Shown: piece by piece, positions 3,165 to 60,724 of the stretch
Layout of the letters: each line of letters begins with the position of its first letter
Numbering within the stretch: the stretch's first letter is position 1
Origin: Panax quinquefolius
Lineage: Eukaryota > Streptophyta > Magnoliopsida > Apiales > Araliaceae
DNA length: 64,000 nucleotides
Direction of reading: 5' to 3'
Assembly: GCA_020205615.1 (NCBI GenBank)
Contig: JAINUW010000625.1
Span: 248,001-312,000, forward strand
Position numbers and translations under genes: made by a program
Notes under the pieces: generated by a model
Told to the model about the DNA's origin: nothing
What the model saw: only the letters and a program-made list of their open reading frames with translations
Databases searched by the model: none

Positions 3165-3387
3165 CTTTTTAAGTAAATACGCAATATTCGCAATTTGAGT
3201 TCACGATTCAAAGATCGTAGTTTGCACTTGAATTCCATGTCTGCGAGCAATTGCTCAACATCATTATCATACTCAATCTCAAATTCGTGCCTTAGTATTG
3301 TAGCGCCACTAAATTCCGTCAAATAAGGCCTGTCATCCCTTAGAATCATTAGCTTTTTCTCTCCAACACTCCTGTCTGCTTGAGAAT
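3165..3387 (-). pseudogene. Captured ADA2-like exon (SAGA coactivator)
   Basis: The minus-strand exon reads ...DDRPYLTEFSGATI, then HEFEIEYDNDVEQLLADMEF, then RELKLRILRIYLKR. This matches the conserved central region of plant ADA2, the adaptor that links GCN5 histone acetyltransferase to transcription factors; in ADA2 the signature is FEIEYDNDAEQLLADMEF followed by a helix ending RIYNKR. The exon has an acceptor (GATGTCAG, before 3387) and a donor (AAAAG/GTAAAC at 3165). No flanking ADA2 exons (ZZ, SANT or SWIRM domains) are present, so this is a fragment. It lies inside CACTA-1 and is most simply a captured copy of a host exon. The segment between the two conserved blocks has diverged. Confidence 0.75.
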
Positions 3388-16740: not shown

Positions 16741-17690
16741 CGTTAAAAATATTAAATTCATCTTCGCAATCCGCCAAAGATATTCATTAACAATTCATCT
16801 TTGCACTACAAAGCAAAGATATACAAATCAGAAACCAATAATGCCGAGACGCAGCCTTAATAAGATCACGACCAATTAATTATCCATGCACCAATCGCCA
16901 AGGATATTCGTGTTTTCAATTACGGCCATGATTATACCAATAATCCTGGTCATAATCATACCAAGTCTATCAATGCACTACTACCAAAAGATGACTTTTT
17001 ACCACATCCATGAATTAATATTTCATCACGAGACTCAAATTTCAATAATTAATCCATATCATCGAATCATCCTCGCACTACGTGCCAAGGATATTCATTA
17101 AGATCACGAACACGAATTATCCATGCACTACTACCAAAGATAATCGTATTCATTAAGATATCATGACCACAAATTATCCATGCACTACTACCAAAGATAA
17201 TCGTATTTATTAGTATCACGACACAAATTATCCATGCACTACTACCAAAGATAATCGTGGTATTCATTAAGATTACGACCACAAATTATCCATGCACTAC
17301 TACCAAAGATAATCGTATTCATTAGTATCACGACCACAAATTATCCATGCACTACTACCAAAGATAATCGTATTCATTAGTATCACGACCACAAATTATC
17401 CATGCGACTACTACCAAAGATAATCGTCGTATTCATTAAGATCACGACCACAAATTATCCATGCACTACGTACAAAGATAATCTTGTTTTCAATTACTAC
17501 TGTTATGATTATACCTAACAATCCCTCGGTCATAATCATACCAAGTCCATCTATGCACTACAAAGCCACGTATGACTTTCAACATAATATAAATACGAGG
17601 ATAATGATATAAAGAATCAATCAAATGAGATAAAGGATAAATATTAAACATTTATAATATAATTTATCCAGATTCAAGAATATCCCCATG
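16741..17690 (-). repeat. LTR-derived segment with 57-bp minisatellite inside element E
   Basis: The sequence is the reverse complement of the 'gtagtgcatggataattgtg' region of the family-2 LTR (compare 44100-44500) but sits in the internal region. At about 17090-17470 a unit containing ATTATCCATGCACTACTACC is repeated seven times at 52-60 bp spacing. It looks like LTR sequence that moved into the body of the element and then expanded. Confidence 0.75.
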
Positions 17691-56472: not shown

Positions 56473-56639
56473 CACTACTACAAAATAATAAATAGACAAC
56501 ACTTAAACCACAACGTTTTTATAAAAAACGTTATCTATTTAAAAAGGATATTTTTTGGTTTTAACTCCATAATGTTTTTTTTAAAACGTCATGTATCTAA
56601 AAAACACGGAGCTAAAAAAAAGCTTTCTCTTTCGCAGAC

Positions 56640-56771
56640 AAAGAGGGTTCAAGTCCTGTATTTTCTTTCTCACCGAGTGTCGTCTCTCATCTCTCTCTGT
56701 TTAGCCTCTTTTCGTTCCATCTGTAAAACAAAAGCTCAGGATCCAGATCCAAAGAGATAAGATTTCAAGGA
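56640..56771 (+). promoter_or_regulatory. Possible promoter and 5' leader of the CACTA-2 chimera
   Basis: A pyrimidine-rich stretch (CTTTCTCACCGAGTGTCGTC, CTCATCTCTCTCTG) precedes the AP2/ERF fragment and resembles the 5' UTR of a plant gene. It may have been captured with that gene. This is inference from composition only. Confidence 0.3.
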
Positions 56772-56957
56772 TTGAGAAAGAGACCGCGGGGAAGATTTGC
56801 TGCGGAGATCAGAGATCCTTGGAAAAAAACTAGGGTTTGGCTCGGTACTTTTGATTTCGAAGACGCCGCACGAGCCTATGACGTCGCCGCTCGAAATCTA
56901 TGCGGTCCAAAAGCCAGGGTTTGGCTCGGTACTTTTGCTTCGTCGTCATTGTCCTAA
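56749..56957 (+). pseudogene. Captured AP2/ERF domain fragment
   Basis: The frame reads [52 protein letters not shown], which is almost a complete AP2/ERF DNA-binding domain (usual form [22 protein letters not shown]...[26 protein letters not shown]). The WAAEIRD and WLGTF elements and the DAARAYD helix are kept. The GV of RGVRKRP is GL, and W of RPWGR is R. ERF proteins with this exact pattern (B-1-type) often act as repressors. A 20-bp stretch encoding RVWLGTF is repeated at 56917, giving the odd end [13 protein letters not shown] and a stop. Confidence 0.85.
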
Positions 56958-57084
56958 GCTTCACTTCTTTTGGTGGTTGTGGGTGGGTGATAATGATGCT
57001 TCTTTTTTGTTTGATTTTTCATCATAGAGAAGTATATAATCAATTAGTTTCTGCTTTGAGTGGCTCATCTCTAGTTTTGAATAG

Positions 57085-57213
57085 GGCTGATTGGGTGATT
57101 GTTGGTTTTTGAGTGCTGTAGCTATTCTAACAGAGGTTTCACGAATATCAGAAGTTATAATTACACCAGAATATAACGAGGAAGGAATCTACACCGTTCG
57201 CTTTTGCATTCAG
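57085..57213 (+). pseudogene. Captured DEK1 calpain exon (catalytic cysteine region)
   Basis: After an acceptor-like GAATAG the frame reads LGDCWFLSAVAILTEVSRIS then EVIITPEYNEEGIYTVRFCI and Q, and ends at CAG/GTACTGG. This is the start of the calpain protease core of DEK1 (phytocalpain), including the active-site Cys in GDCWFLSA. DEK1 is a large membrane protein needed for epidermal fate. The codon before LGDC is TGA where DEK1 has Arg, a C-to-T change in CGA. His and Asn of the catalytic triad are not in the fragment, so no protease activity is possible. Confidence 0.85.
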
Positions 57214-57373
57214 GTACTGGCTGCTTGTTCTGCACCTGTTTTAGTTTGTTTGACTAGAATTATATATCTAATTTCTGGTGTGAAAAAGTATACTGATAAT
57301 TTCCTTACCTTCTGATTTAAGGAATATGCTTATATGATTTGGCTAAGTATCTGATAAAGAATTATATTGGATA

Positions 57374-57555
57374 AATAGAAGCATAGCCACTCTTACGATC
57401 ACCACGCTGCTAAAAACAGGCAACGAATCAAGTGTTGATAGTTTGATGAAACAAATAACCAATTTCATGTATGACATTGCTGATGAGTTCAAAATCGTTG
57501 TTTTGGAAGCCATTAGATCATTGTGTCTAAAGTTCCCTCTCAAGTACAGATCTCT
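57374..57555 (+). pseudogene. Captured coatomer gamma (COPI) exon, first of two
   Basis: It reads [60 protein letters not shown] and ends at the donor TCT/GTAAG. This is the HEAT-repeat trunk of the gamma subunit of the COPI coat, which forms Golgi-to-ER vesicles. It continues in phase at 57641. Similarity to known plant coatomer gamma is near-complete by eye, suggesting fairly recent capture. Confidence 0.85.
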
Positions 57556-57640
57556 GTAAGTGTGTTTAATGTGCTTCTTTCTTGGACAAATGAGGTGTTT
57601 TAATTAAGTTCCTTACCGTTTTCCTTTTTGAAATTTCAAG

Positions 57641-57812
57641 GATGAATTTCTTAAGCAATATACTGAGGGAAAAAGGTGGTTTTGATTACAAGAAAGCCAT
57701 TGTTGATTCTATCATGATCTTCATAAGAGATATACCAGATGCAAAAGAAAGTGGGTTGCTTCACCTTTGTGAAATTATTAAGGATTGTGAATTCACATAG
57801 CTTTCTACACAG
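57641..57812 (+). pseudogene. Captured coatomer gamma exon, second of two
   Basis: After TTTCAAG it reads [52 protein letters not shown], a stop (TAG for a Tyr codon), LSTQ, then the donor CAG/GTTGGC. The intron (57556-57640) is retained between the two exons. The stop shows that the coatomer reading is not maintained. Confidence 0.85.
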
Positions 57813-58034
57813 GTTGGCATTTTTGCCTTATGTTATTCTTTTCCTGTCATTAGCACGACTCAGCAATTTAATCAGCTAGTTACGGAGGTATGATGTTTGG
57901 AATTTTCCCTGGCAAAGATTATGTTCATCAGCTGAGACTTATTACGGAGGTATAATGTTTGGAATTTTCCTTGAATTCACAAAGCATTTTCACTGCTGAT
58001 TTCCTATGTTTTTTTTTATTATTTTTTGGTGTAG

Positions 58035-58157
58035 GAGAAACAGAAGTATTTAGCTCACTCAACACAATTAGACTATGTTGAAAAGATTGATAAGTCTGTT
58101 GAGTTCCCACTTGAGTTGGACTTGCATTCGTACACTAGTAGCAGTCACAATAGTACT
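58035..58157 (+). pseudogene. Captured exon, probable ubiquitin-specific protease
   Basis: Between acceptor GGTGTAG and donor ACT/GTGAG it reads EKQKYLAHSTQLDYVEKIDK and SVEFPLELDLHSYTSSSHNS. The block KIDKSVEFPLELDL.PYTS is typical of the UCH/USP fold just after the LKRF motif of plant ubiquitin-specific proteases. Cys and His boxes are not present. The exact family member cannot be told, and the family call itself is less certain than its neighbours. Confidence 0.5.
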
Positions 58158-58703
58158 GTGAGTTTGTTTATTATGCTAATTACTTCATTTTCCTCCCATG
58201 TGTCTGGTTCCTCTTCCTCATGAGGGGTATAGGACTCCAGTAAGCTGGCCCGAAAGTAAATTAAAGGTATGTAATATGACTTTGACATGTTTTAGGTTTT
58301 GAAGATCTGTTTTAGGTATAGGTGAGCATTAATTGATCGTCTCTTATTCTCTACAATTCAAGTATAATTACATTTTAGCTTTTTATCTAGAGACGTCTTC
58401 ATTGGATCTGATTTTTCACTTCACATTAGCACTTAAAGCCTAGTTTGTTTTCTATAAAAGTGGAAGGCATGATCATGCCCTTTTGAGCCGAATGTGGTAA
58501 AATGAGCATTCCTTCTACAGACAAAGTTTTGGCCCAAACTGTTCTGCATTCAAATTTAGATCATGTCCCAGATCAGTTTACCACAACTGTTGAAAGAAAC
58601 TTGCCTTTGAGTACTTGTGCTGCTACTGTGTTGCATCATCTATAATAGCAAGTTCTTTCAAATTACTTTATTTTGCTTTTCTGACAAATTTTTTTTGTTC
58701 CAG
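58158..58703 (+). other. CACTA-2 spacer or retained intron
   Basis: There is no recognisable coding sequence. It separates the USP-like and CHID1-like pieces and may be intronic DNA from either source gene. Confidence 0.45.
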
Positions 58704-58997
58704 AGATGTCCAAGCTGACTGCAAGTATCTGTTGGAATATCTTGGCTCATAAAAGTGATGAAGTTAGCGACATTGGTGTTAAAATATATCAGAAGCCAAG
58801 TCTACAGTTAGTGTATGTTATAGGCCCACCACGTTCAGAGGAGCTCCAGGAGTATGATTTTGGGCCTGAAGATCTTAAGGTTTTGAGTGATGCTGTAGAT
58901 GGTTACTCGCTTATGACTTACAACTTCTCAGGCCCCCAGAATCCTGGTCCAAATGCACCTTTGAAGTGGATCCACTCCATCTTGCAGCTGCTCCTTG
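58704..58997 (+). pseudogene. Captured CHID1-like (GH18 chitinase-domain) exon
   Basis: After TTGTTCCAG it reads ...KPSLQLVYVIGPPRSEELQE, YDFGPEDLKVLSDAVDGYSL, MTYNFSGPQNPGPNAPLKWI, HSILQLLLG, ending at TTG/GTACC. The DAVDG.SLMTYDFSG.QNPGPNAPL block is characteristic of plant chitinase-domain-containing protein 1, a GH18-fold protein. The first part (SKLTASICWNILAHKSDEVS) is less clearly related. It stays open for about 100 codons, the longest uninterrupted captured frame. Confidence 0.8.
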
Positions 58998-59048
58998 GTA
59001 CCAGCCATAACAGTTGAATCTTACTTGCAAACTCGAATCTGGTTGCAG

Positions 59049-59123
59049 ATTTTAATCGATAGTGTTCCTCTTAAAGAGTTGGATATCAGATGGCTGAGGG
59101 AAAGTATTGGTTATGTTGGACAG
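59049..59123 (+). pseudogene. Captured ABC transporter exon (TAP/ABCB half-transporter), first of two
   Basis: From GGTTGCAG to CAG/GTTAGG it reads ILIDSVPLKELDIRWLRESI and GYVGQ. This is the stretch leading to the Q-loop of an ABC nucleotide-binding domain of the B subfamily. The Walker A motif is missing. Confidence 0.8.
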
Positions 59124-59197
59124 GTTAGGCTTATAATCTGCAAGATATGCTTGAGGCTAGTTATAAAGTTGTTATCTAAATATTCTATTGTGAGCAG

Positions 59198-59239
59198 GAA
59201 CCTCATCTTTTTAATATGGATATCAAGTCAAACATAAGG
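59198..59239 (+). pseudogene. Captured ABC transporter exon, second of two
   Basis: From GAGCAG to AGG/GTATGC it reads EPHLFNMDIKSNIR, which directly continues the Q-loop (GYVGQ-EPHLFNMDI). The original intron (59124-59197) is retained. The wording resembles plastid/vacuolar half-size ABCB transporters of the TAP2/ALS1 type. Confidence 0.8.
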
Positions 59240-59734
59240 GTATGCATTCATAATTCTCAGTTAAGTGACTTCTTTTGCTATAGTAGTCTTGAGGAATACC
59301 ATTATTTATTTTCATAAAATTTAAAAACTTTGTTAAATATCACAAAAACGTATATACAATCAGATTTTCAGATATGTTTCCGACTAGTACTAGTTGCGGT
59401 AGTTCTTCTGTTCTAAGCAGATTCAATCTTTTCAGATATGTTGTGATTCGCAAATTGGTGACTAACAGAAAAAAGTGTGTCGACTGTTGTTTAATGTGCC
59501 CCTTTCTGAACCTTTTTCAACCAAAGTTTAGCACCTTATAGAAATAAGACTTGTAAGGAAATCTGGTAACAGTTCTTATGTTTTTCTTTAATGAATGTTT
59601 GAATTGAACAATTTCTGTTCATATTTTTTGAATCTTTTGATAATCTACAATATTTCCCCTTTTGTAGCTAAAGAAGATAGATTCTTACTTTTCATATTTC
59701 ATATTGGATTAAAACTCAGTCTTATGGTTGGCAG
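59240..59734 (+). other. CACTA-2 spacer, no recognised gene
   Basis: AT-rich sequence with no protein similarity, probably intronic. Confidence 0.45.
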
Positions 59735-59874
59735 CTGGATGTGACATCAACACAACTTCTTGTGACTGATAATGATTTTAGGGACGCAGATTTCAGGAAG
59801 CAACTAACTGAAACAGTGACATCCTTGTTGGCTCTAAAAGTTGTGCAGTCAGCAATAGGAAAGCTCCATATGAG
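59735..59874 (+). pseudogene. Captured P5CS exon (glutamate kinase domain)
   Basis: After GTTGGCAG it reads [37 protein letters not shown], then a short deletion, and in a shifted frame RKAPYE before [28 protein letters not shown] is the signature of delta-1-pyrroline-5-carboxylate synthase, the rate-limiting enzyme of proline synthesis under salt and drought stress. The IFNENDA segment that should join the two parts is deleted, so the exon itself is damaged. Confidence 0.85.
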
Positions 59875-60039
59875 GTATGCTTAGCTTTTTTATTTCTACT
59901 TGTTTATTGTTATTGTGAATTACATTTGCTGCTGCTTCAATTGAAAAACTGTAATTTTTGAGTGCCAAAGTGGCACAAACAGTTATACATTCTTGATTAT
60001 TATTTCTGTGTATTTATGCTTGGCGTTAATTATGTCCAG

Positions 60040-60172
60040 GCCAATTTAATGTTATGGATTATGTAGCCTTTCTGAGGATTGAGTTGAATGATCATGGAAT
60101 GATGCTAGGAAGATTTGGCAGGTGGTCTGGTGTTTTTCTTCCTTCACTGATTGACAAAAAGGCTATTGGATG
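60040..60172 (+). pseudogene. Candidate captured exon, unidentified
   Basis: After an acceptor-like TATGTCCAG the frame GQFNVMDYVAFLRIELNDHG, MMLGRFGRWSGVFLP stays open for about 43 codons to a TGA at about 60170. I do not recognise it. It may be the 3' exon of the chimera or chance. Confidence 0.25.
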
Positions 60173-60475
60173 ATGTGGCATGTAGGTCTCCATGAGGCCA
60201 AATTTGTGACAATAAATTTGCTCTAAATTTGATTAATCAATTGTTAAGTCTTGAGTTGTAATGTGAATGATTTTAAATGATGTATATAATATTTTTTATG
60301 TTTTATTTTATAGTGTCGATATTCTAGTAGTGTTACAATATGCTAATCTTTCATGTGCATATTGCAGGTGTATTGGTAATGTAGGTGAATCACAATTTTT
60401 TTTTCAATTTTTTTTAATCTACAACATTTTAAATGCATTGTGTAAATGTGTCTAAACGATGTCTGATATATTAAA

Positions 60476-60724
60476 CTACAACATTTTTATCCAAGAAACG
60501 TTGTGGAATCATACTTTCTACAACGTTTTTAAGCATCTGTTAATTTATGGAAAACGAATCTACAACGTTTTTTTCTTAAAAAACGTTATGTAATGTGCTT
60601 AACTACAACATTTTAAAAGCGTTGTGTAAGGGTGTCAAATAGATGACACCCTTAATCACGATGTTTTTCTGACTGAAACCACAACGTTTTTTCTGCGTTG
60701 TCTATTTATTATTTTGTAGTAGTG
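60476..60724. repeat. CACTA-2 right subterminal repeats and TIR
   Basis: ACAACGTTTTT and its variants occur repeatedly in both orientations, ending in GTTGTCTATTTATTATTTTG and TAGTAGTG, the complement of the left end. Confidence 0.85.

Follow-up and report, generated by a model that had tools for sequence, protein, structure and literature searches.

The element considered here lies in a window of 64,000 nucleotides from Panax quinquefolius (contig JAINUW010000625.1, positions 248,001 to 312,000; coordinates below are those of the window). It spans 56473-60724 (4,252 bp) and is bounded by 28-bp terminal inverted repeats (TIRs) that open with CACTACTACAAAA, its first 28 bases (CACTACTACAAAATAATAAATAGACAAC) being the perfect reverse complement of its last 28 bases. 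Sequence comparison found both these limits and the perfect CACTA ends to be exactly those drawn by a first-pass annotation made from the sequence alone. Short repeats in direct and inverted orientation are present in the sub-terminal regions, as in the CACTA superfamily, and the interior is tiled almost edge to edge by matches to genome loci. Pieces of nine identified genes account for 3,071 of the 3,580 bp (86%) between the end modules, source loci being found for each of the nine at about 92-99% identity, and all nine lie on the plus strand, in agreement with the uniform orientation first described. The lack of a transposase had also been read correctly: none was matched among the 10 open reading frames (ORFs) of the element scanned with Pfam, and 56739-59825 is covered by host-derived modules except for 16 bp, with 59826-60316 only partly assigned. 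The element is a non-autonomous CACTA without a transposase coding region, as are the elements called Pack-CACTA.

The interior was searched against the genome and 40 of 902 candidates were scored, so that copy counts are lower bounds. Assignment of the pieces (table 1; L and C numbers designate the loci compared) was based on Pfam, PDB and NCBIfam matches of the pieces themselves, of source exons or of source loci. All seven sources named in the first-pass annotation proved to be real, two more (a MAP kinase and a PMT-type methyltransferase) having been missed. The AP2 piece, also real, is confined to 56739-56941; the adjoining 56625-56736 is a left-end module common to the family, and was the sole matching stretch in 26 of the 40 rows of the genome search. 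Pfam matches on source loci back the UCH, AP2, COPG (upstream exon), GH18, ABC_tran and Methyltransf_29 assignments. For the window pieces, Adaptin_N is matched on both COPG exons (on the second below the Pfam cut-off), the UCH and GH18 matches are weak in Pfam, the CHID1-like piece matches PDB 3bxw with an expectation value (E) of 1.5e-8, and the ABCB piece, with its two exons joined, gives a match at E 6e-11. The MAP kinase piece has PGKDYVHQLRLITE, and the source exon containing PGKDYVHQLRLITE matches MPK4 (E 1.6e-9). The 27-residue ubiquitin-specific protease (USP) piece by itself gave no PDB match, and no informative Pfam match was obtained for the COPG downstream exon or for the flanking ORFs of L024 (DEK1) and L036 (P5CS), the DEK1 and P5CS source loci being recognized through alignment and reading. 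The names DEK1, PMT and HCF107 are those which we take to apply where the profile matches read Peptidase_C2, Methyltransf_29 and a weak TPR. The 69 bp between the P5CS piece and module Y match only relatives of the element, and module Y gave no match in Pfam, NCBIfam or PDB, as was also the case for an ORF in its relative L043. Two side observations concern the same gene families. In at least four other chimeras (L049, L051, L052 and L053), a piece of a MAP kinase is fused, in one direction, with one of a plasma-membrane H+-ATPase, the latter assigned from a TIGR01647 match (E 6e-6) in L049 and by reading in L051-L053. An AP2-bearing stretch is present in three copies about 18.9 kb apart (G000:C169:120055, 138967 and 157961; L067, L068 and L070), suggesting tandem segmental duplication.

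Table 1. Features of the composite element, in window coordinates.
Feature	Position	Strand	Basis, sources and remarks
Left terminal inverted repeat, begins CACTA	56473-56500	+	28 bp; terminal sequence comparison
Left sub-terminal region	56501-56736	+	56625-56736 part common to many family elements
AP2/ERF piece, ~33-bp back-jump duplication on 3' side	56739-56941	+	Pfam AP2, E 7e-15; sources C11:5.86M, C676
DEK1 calpain piece with introns and the GDCW-containing exon	56946-57372	+	Peptidase_C2, E 2e-7; sources L024/L030 (DEK1 by reading)
Coatomer gamma (COPG) piece with two exons and an intron	57373-57881	+	Adaptin_N; source gene L019, 97%
MAP kinase piece, 32-bp back-jump duplication on 5' side	57880-58075	+	Sources L048/L050; PDB MPK4 (source exon)
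Ubiquitin-specific protease (USP) piece	58074-58190	+	Source gene L074, UCH E 3e-12
PMT-type methyltransferase piece, 1.4 kb of source absent at 58344-58347	58191-58797	+	Methyltransf_29; sources L021/L022
CHID1-like GH18 piece	58794-59015	+	PDB 3bxw; source gene L040
ABCB transporter piece with two exons and an intron; 770 bp deleted at 59235-59247	59013-59362	+	Sources L037/L038
12-bp filler between ABCB and P5CS pieces	59363-59374	+	Also in L013
P5CS piece, 136-bp deletion at 59634-59637	59375-59825	+	E 7e-9; source locus L036
Module Y, genomic repeat	59895-60316	+	Relatives L028, L032, L034, L043
Right sub-terminal region	60317-60696	+	ACAACG-type repeats, direct and inverted
Right terminal inverted repeat	60697-60724	-	28 bp

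Sibling copies, which the first-pass annotation had proposed to seek together with the parental loci, were found on C21 and C19. The copies among the candidates scored comprise at least a full-length one on C21 (L010, 97% identity to the window element), a split one on C19 (L011/L012, C19:90.61-90.63 Mb) and partial ones on C3 and C12. The C21 and C19 siblings carry the whole series in unchanged order, both with matching target duplications. The C19 copy is split in its PMT piece by an insertion of about 10 kb at the window equivalent of 58273-58277, with AATAT (5 bp) on either side. Its unique substitutions (112 in 56723-58322, from AP2 to the start of PMT, versus 27 in 58323-60724) imply block exchange after assembly; methylation decay as the cause of the divergence of the 5' block was rejected, as all substitution types are raised.

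Parts of the series are also found in other company. In L013, the ABCB piece is longer, the deletions of ABCB and of P5CS are both present, as are module Y and the right end, and a different MAP kinase exon precedes the series. L015, with TIRs at both sides, has the P5CS deletion and an upstream part in common with L013. In L042, long DEK1 and then COPG pieces follow the left TIR in the order of the window element, and the DEK1 module occurs with one common source start in eight loci, seven having a TIR nearby, the window piece being a version 115 bp shorter at the shared-start side. L016 and L017 hold a TPR-USP-PMT series (the TPR match in L016 is weak, E 0.01) and L018 a Sep15-PMT series, the PMT deletion being identical to that of the window element. 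Since the ABCB-P5CS block, the PMT deletion piece and the DEK1-then-COPG order are present in other loci, the window element is unlikely to have collected its pieces singly, captures having taken place in several places and been combined later. The composite was thus built in steps and in part through exchange, in an order of events that is only partly resolved. Two candidate steps were given up. L014 was considered as an intermediate without PMT and dropped, its ends being cut by other repeats, and no order was drawn from it; an L042-like ancestor for the DEK1-COPG pair would be supported only by order and the DEK1 module, as the joins differ and the COPG distances do not decide.

Inspection of the boundaries between pieces is informative on how they may have been acquired. 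Most joins overlap by 0-9 bp when aligned with the sources (COPG/MAP kinase, 2 bp; MAP kinase/USP, 2 bp; PMT/CHID1, 4 bp; CHID1/ABCB, 3 bp; DEK1/COPG, 0 bp), the USP/PMT join being placed within two bases either way according to the relative used, and one, ABCB/P5CS, has a 12-bp filler. The MAP kinase piece starts with a back-jump (57880-57911), in which 32 bp from source positions 1538-1569 are followed by a restart at 1501 with a 7-bp overlap. In the AP2 piece, which has its back-jump at 56909-56941, 33 bp of source 1595-1563 are repeated after source position 1501, with 8- and 7-bp overlaps, and about 20 bp from source 1188-1169 follow. Microhomology of 4 bp accompanies the internal deletion of 1.4 kb in the PMT piece, 13 bp that of 770 bp in ABCB and 4 bp that of 136 bp in P5CS. 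From these joins and back-jumps we infer repair synthesis that would have switched template at microhomology. Introns are kept in the COPG and ABCB pieces, as expected from the capture at the DNA level proposed earlier, and the splice sites said to be intact retain GT or AG in all 10 cases inspected (six donors and four acceptors).

The element belongs to a very large family. With up to three mismatches, its 28-bp end was found at 3,291 places in the 3.57-Gb genome (1,667 forward and 1,624 reverse), as compared with none for a reversed-pattern control, and no match was found in viral contigs; the 13-base TIR core was not found as text in the literature searched. The left and right ends of the element are unlike each other and both end modules recur in other copies, so that the elements have a left-to-right polarity. 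Target duplications match at seven of 10 family elements (L010, C19, L007, L055, L056 and L058, of 3 bp, and L060, of 4 bp); mismatches were found at L015, L054 and the window copy, which is inserted in a minus-strand Ty3/gypsy element, near the gypsy protease (ORFs identified by reading).

Given this polarity, orientation of captured genes was determined in 13 further elements drawn from places with the 28-bp end. L054-L056 were chosen because both ends lie 4-7 kb apart, L057-L062 are six of eight listed exact-end loci (L002 is the same as L054, and L007 was excluded as short), and L075-L078 are four of 16 other exact-end places. Both ends are covered in L054-L056, L058, L060 and, by TIR and right module, L078; for the remaining elements, a single end gave the polarity, and the stretch may in part extend past the other. 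A codon-usage scan had given mixed strands, read as antisense shadows of GC-rich exons, and Pfam on both strands (E <=0.001) was therefore used instead, on stop-to-stop ORFs of at least 40 amino acids sorted by element polarity. In L075-L077, ORFs that ran across an element end were excluded, as were the ORFs past the right end of L078; one antisense ORF that spans the L078 end was retained. From the 267 sense ORFs (104+107+56) Pfam identified 14 host genes (Det1; RRM_1; Pex2_Pex12; Methyltransf_11/25; WD40; Anoctamin; DEAD; API5, in an ORF that also has SAP at 0.0014; Epimerase-type; START and bZIP_1, counted as one gene; DYW; DUF6857; GH35; and Metallophos). Among the 255 antisense ORFs (107+103+45), a retrotransposon domain of Tf2 type was the sole match, and host families were absent. 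Thus, every Pfam-identified captured gene in the sample is sense relative to the left-to-right polarity. Individual placement was obtained for 12 of the 14 genes, in eight elements, with eight of the 12 above the Pfam cut-off; reading put START in L058, whereas Det1 and Anoctamin were not assigned to single elements, and L059, L060, L062, L075 and L078 received no host gene from Pfam.

With the nine genes of the window, the count is 23 sense to 0 antisense, which an even coin would give with a probability of 1.2e-7; genes of one element may not be independent, and agreement of nine elements would have a probability of about 0.2-0.4%. Some points weigh against a general rule. Four of the 12 placed matches (API5, DEAD, WD40 and bZIP_1) do not reach the curated Pfam threshold, visual reading of L054-L056 preceded the test and was the source of the idea, and a counter-example exists outside this family, in a grapevine CACTA family with a PPR piece in antisense (PMC2528002). 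Among the elements retrieved later than L054-L056, the placed genes number nine in sense and none in antisense (0.2% for an even coin). The literature searched on captured-fragment orientation, from which subscription papers were largely absent, gave no mention of a sense-only rule for CACTA elements. The pattern hints at one-way capture or filtering, directional transcription-linked template use and loss of antisense captures appearing about equally likely. It is tentatively proposed, as a reading somewhat less likely than not, that capture in this family is one-way, pieces entering or surviving only in sense; repair synthesis would then start at one end of the element, run in a set direction and use transcribed genes as templates (transcription-linked template switching).

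Taken together, the 28-bp TIRs, the two distinct conserved ends, the huge copy number, and the host-gene fragments inside with nine source genes elsewhere in the genome lead us to consider it very probable that the element is a Pack-CACTA, the interior of which was replaced by pieces of host genes through template-switch capture and then recombination of modules. Breaks at or in an element would be repaired by synthesis that passes into host genes by template switches at short homologies, modules already present would later recombine between family members, and an autonomous relative would need to move the element in trans. Some findings tell against this explanation. The 3-bp flanks of the window copy (TTT/TCC) do not match, a discrepancy for which two C-to-T changes would account; a target duplication is a trait of the single insertion that can decay, and the siblings retain theirs. 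Moreover, L016-L018 have no TIR within 1.5 kb and may not be elements. The first-pass interpretation is supported, with nine sources rather than seven and with captures combined from several loci; that several sources meet in one element was confirmed, but the window element is no singular oddity, as several of the 13 other family elements hold pieces of three or more genes and sense orientation prevails in them as well.

Among other explanations, the one that survives best, possible if rather doubtful, is the Catoni model, by which two nearby insertions repeatedly move as a unit with the gene DNA between them, the inner ends being lost later. Modules do move between loci, fused elements and same-orientation local insertions have been reported by Gisby and Catoni in the accessible part of their account (PMC8903248), and L054 has two successive right ends (L054:6087-6599), possibly from a fusion of two elements. 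However, the window element has no inner TIR core and no sub-terminal repeat block between its nine modules, just a lone CGTTGT at 57496; its pieces abut with microhomology and back-jumps, and fusion alone does not predict one-way orientation.

That orientation, along with the match of 86% of the interior to source-gene loci, would be accommodated if nascent, still unspliced RNAs of host genes had been copied and the copies attached to element sequence, giving sense-only pieces. Such RNA-mediated capture is nevertheless improbable given the retained introns, the lack of any exon-exon fusion in the aligned pieces and the start of the ABCB deletion within an exon and not at a splice site; moreover, to our knowledge, CACTA elements carry no reverse transcriptase.

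Still less likely is an interpretation of the composite as a new gene, or as a regulator acting in trans on its nine source genes, maintained by selection. The 10 intact splice sites, the identity to the sources, which could allow small RNAs to cross-match, and the splicing of Tgm-Express1 fragments as exons (PMC1947982, in its accessible part) would suit it, as would the in-frame junction of the PMT and CHID1 pieces in a 110-amino acid ORF (58685-59017). However, this is the only cross-gene reading frame seen within one ORF, the second COPG exon has a premature stop codon, and the location is inside a gypsy element. Pooled pN/pS values (with PMT1 lacking a usable source match, and the MAP kinase frame misassigned and showing no differences) are 0.79 versus the sources, 1.51 versus the C21 sibling and 1.38 versus the 3' half of the C19 sibling (L011); those versus its 5' half (0.50, which would suit selection) and versus L014 (0.74) mean that the comparisons are not all neutral-looking. 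Overall, they show few signs of purifying selection, and nothing in them clearly points to a conserved protein.

A Helitron or Pack-MULE, both well known for gene capture, or a pile of nested insertions is hardly credible, Helitrons having 5' TC and 3' CTRR ends and neither inverted repeats nor target duplications, hallmarks that the element does not show; identity with either class was rejected on the CACTA ends, the 28-bp inverted repeats and the 3-bp target duplications at siblings, and separate later insertions are contradicted by siblings that hold the identical series.

Pack-CACTA elements, reportedly treated with other Pack-TYPE elements in a study by Catoni in 2019, are known in kind, the present one standing out for its unusual wealth of sources and for how fully its relatives document it. 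The closest comparison, from the accessible part of its description, is Tgm-Express1, the soybean CACTA of the wp allele, which likewise has several unrelated host-gene fragments with introns kept, and in which five such fragments in 5.7 kb are processed as exons of one transcript (PMC1947982) and would therefore lie in one direction. The window element has nine sources in 4.25 kb and, known here from DNA alone, has its source loci, siblings and relatives mapped. Pack-TYPE elements, as set out in the portion of PMC8903248 available, share with it non-autonomy, CACTA ends, captured coding DNA and multiple loci per element, Pack-CACTA having the most loci per element in maize; the window element differs in its template-switch joins rather than end remnants, and that portion does not mention sense-only orientation. 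The Tpn1 family of morning glory is similar by description in being CACTA with 28-bp TIRs and captured host sequences replacing the interior; chimeric transcripts are reported, and orientation is not stated in the accessible text (PMC5105172). Maize Helitrons resemble the element in the stepwise gain of several gene fragments with shared intermediates, but differ in transposition machinery and ends (PMC3288121, also in part).

Elsewhere in the window, six CACTACTACCAAA units at 16976-17362, the last five spaced by 54-58 bp, with strong GC skew, form an array that looks like a minisatellite.

The way in which DNA transposons come by pieces of genes is a matter of continuing debate. The Pack-CACTA described here and its relatives provide a readable record of the process, in which sources of about 92-99% identity, shared deletions, microhomology joins and back-jumps can be followed together. 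If the sense-only rule holds over the approximately 1,600 elements implied by the 3,291 ends, it would separate directional capture from selection against antisense pieces, and, if true, it would help to explain the easy splicing of captured exons, as in Tgm-Express1. One-way capture, if it takes place, would make the family a generator of splice-ready strings of exons.

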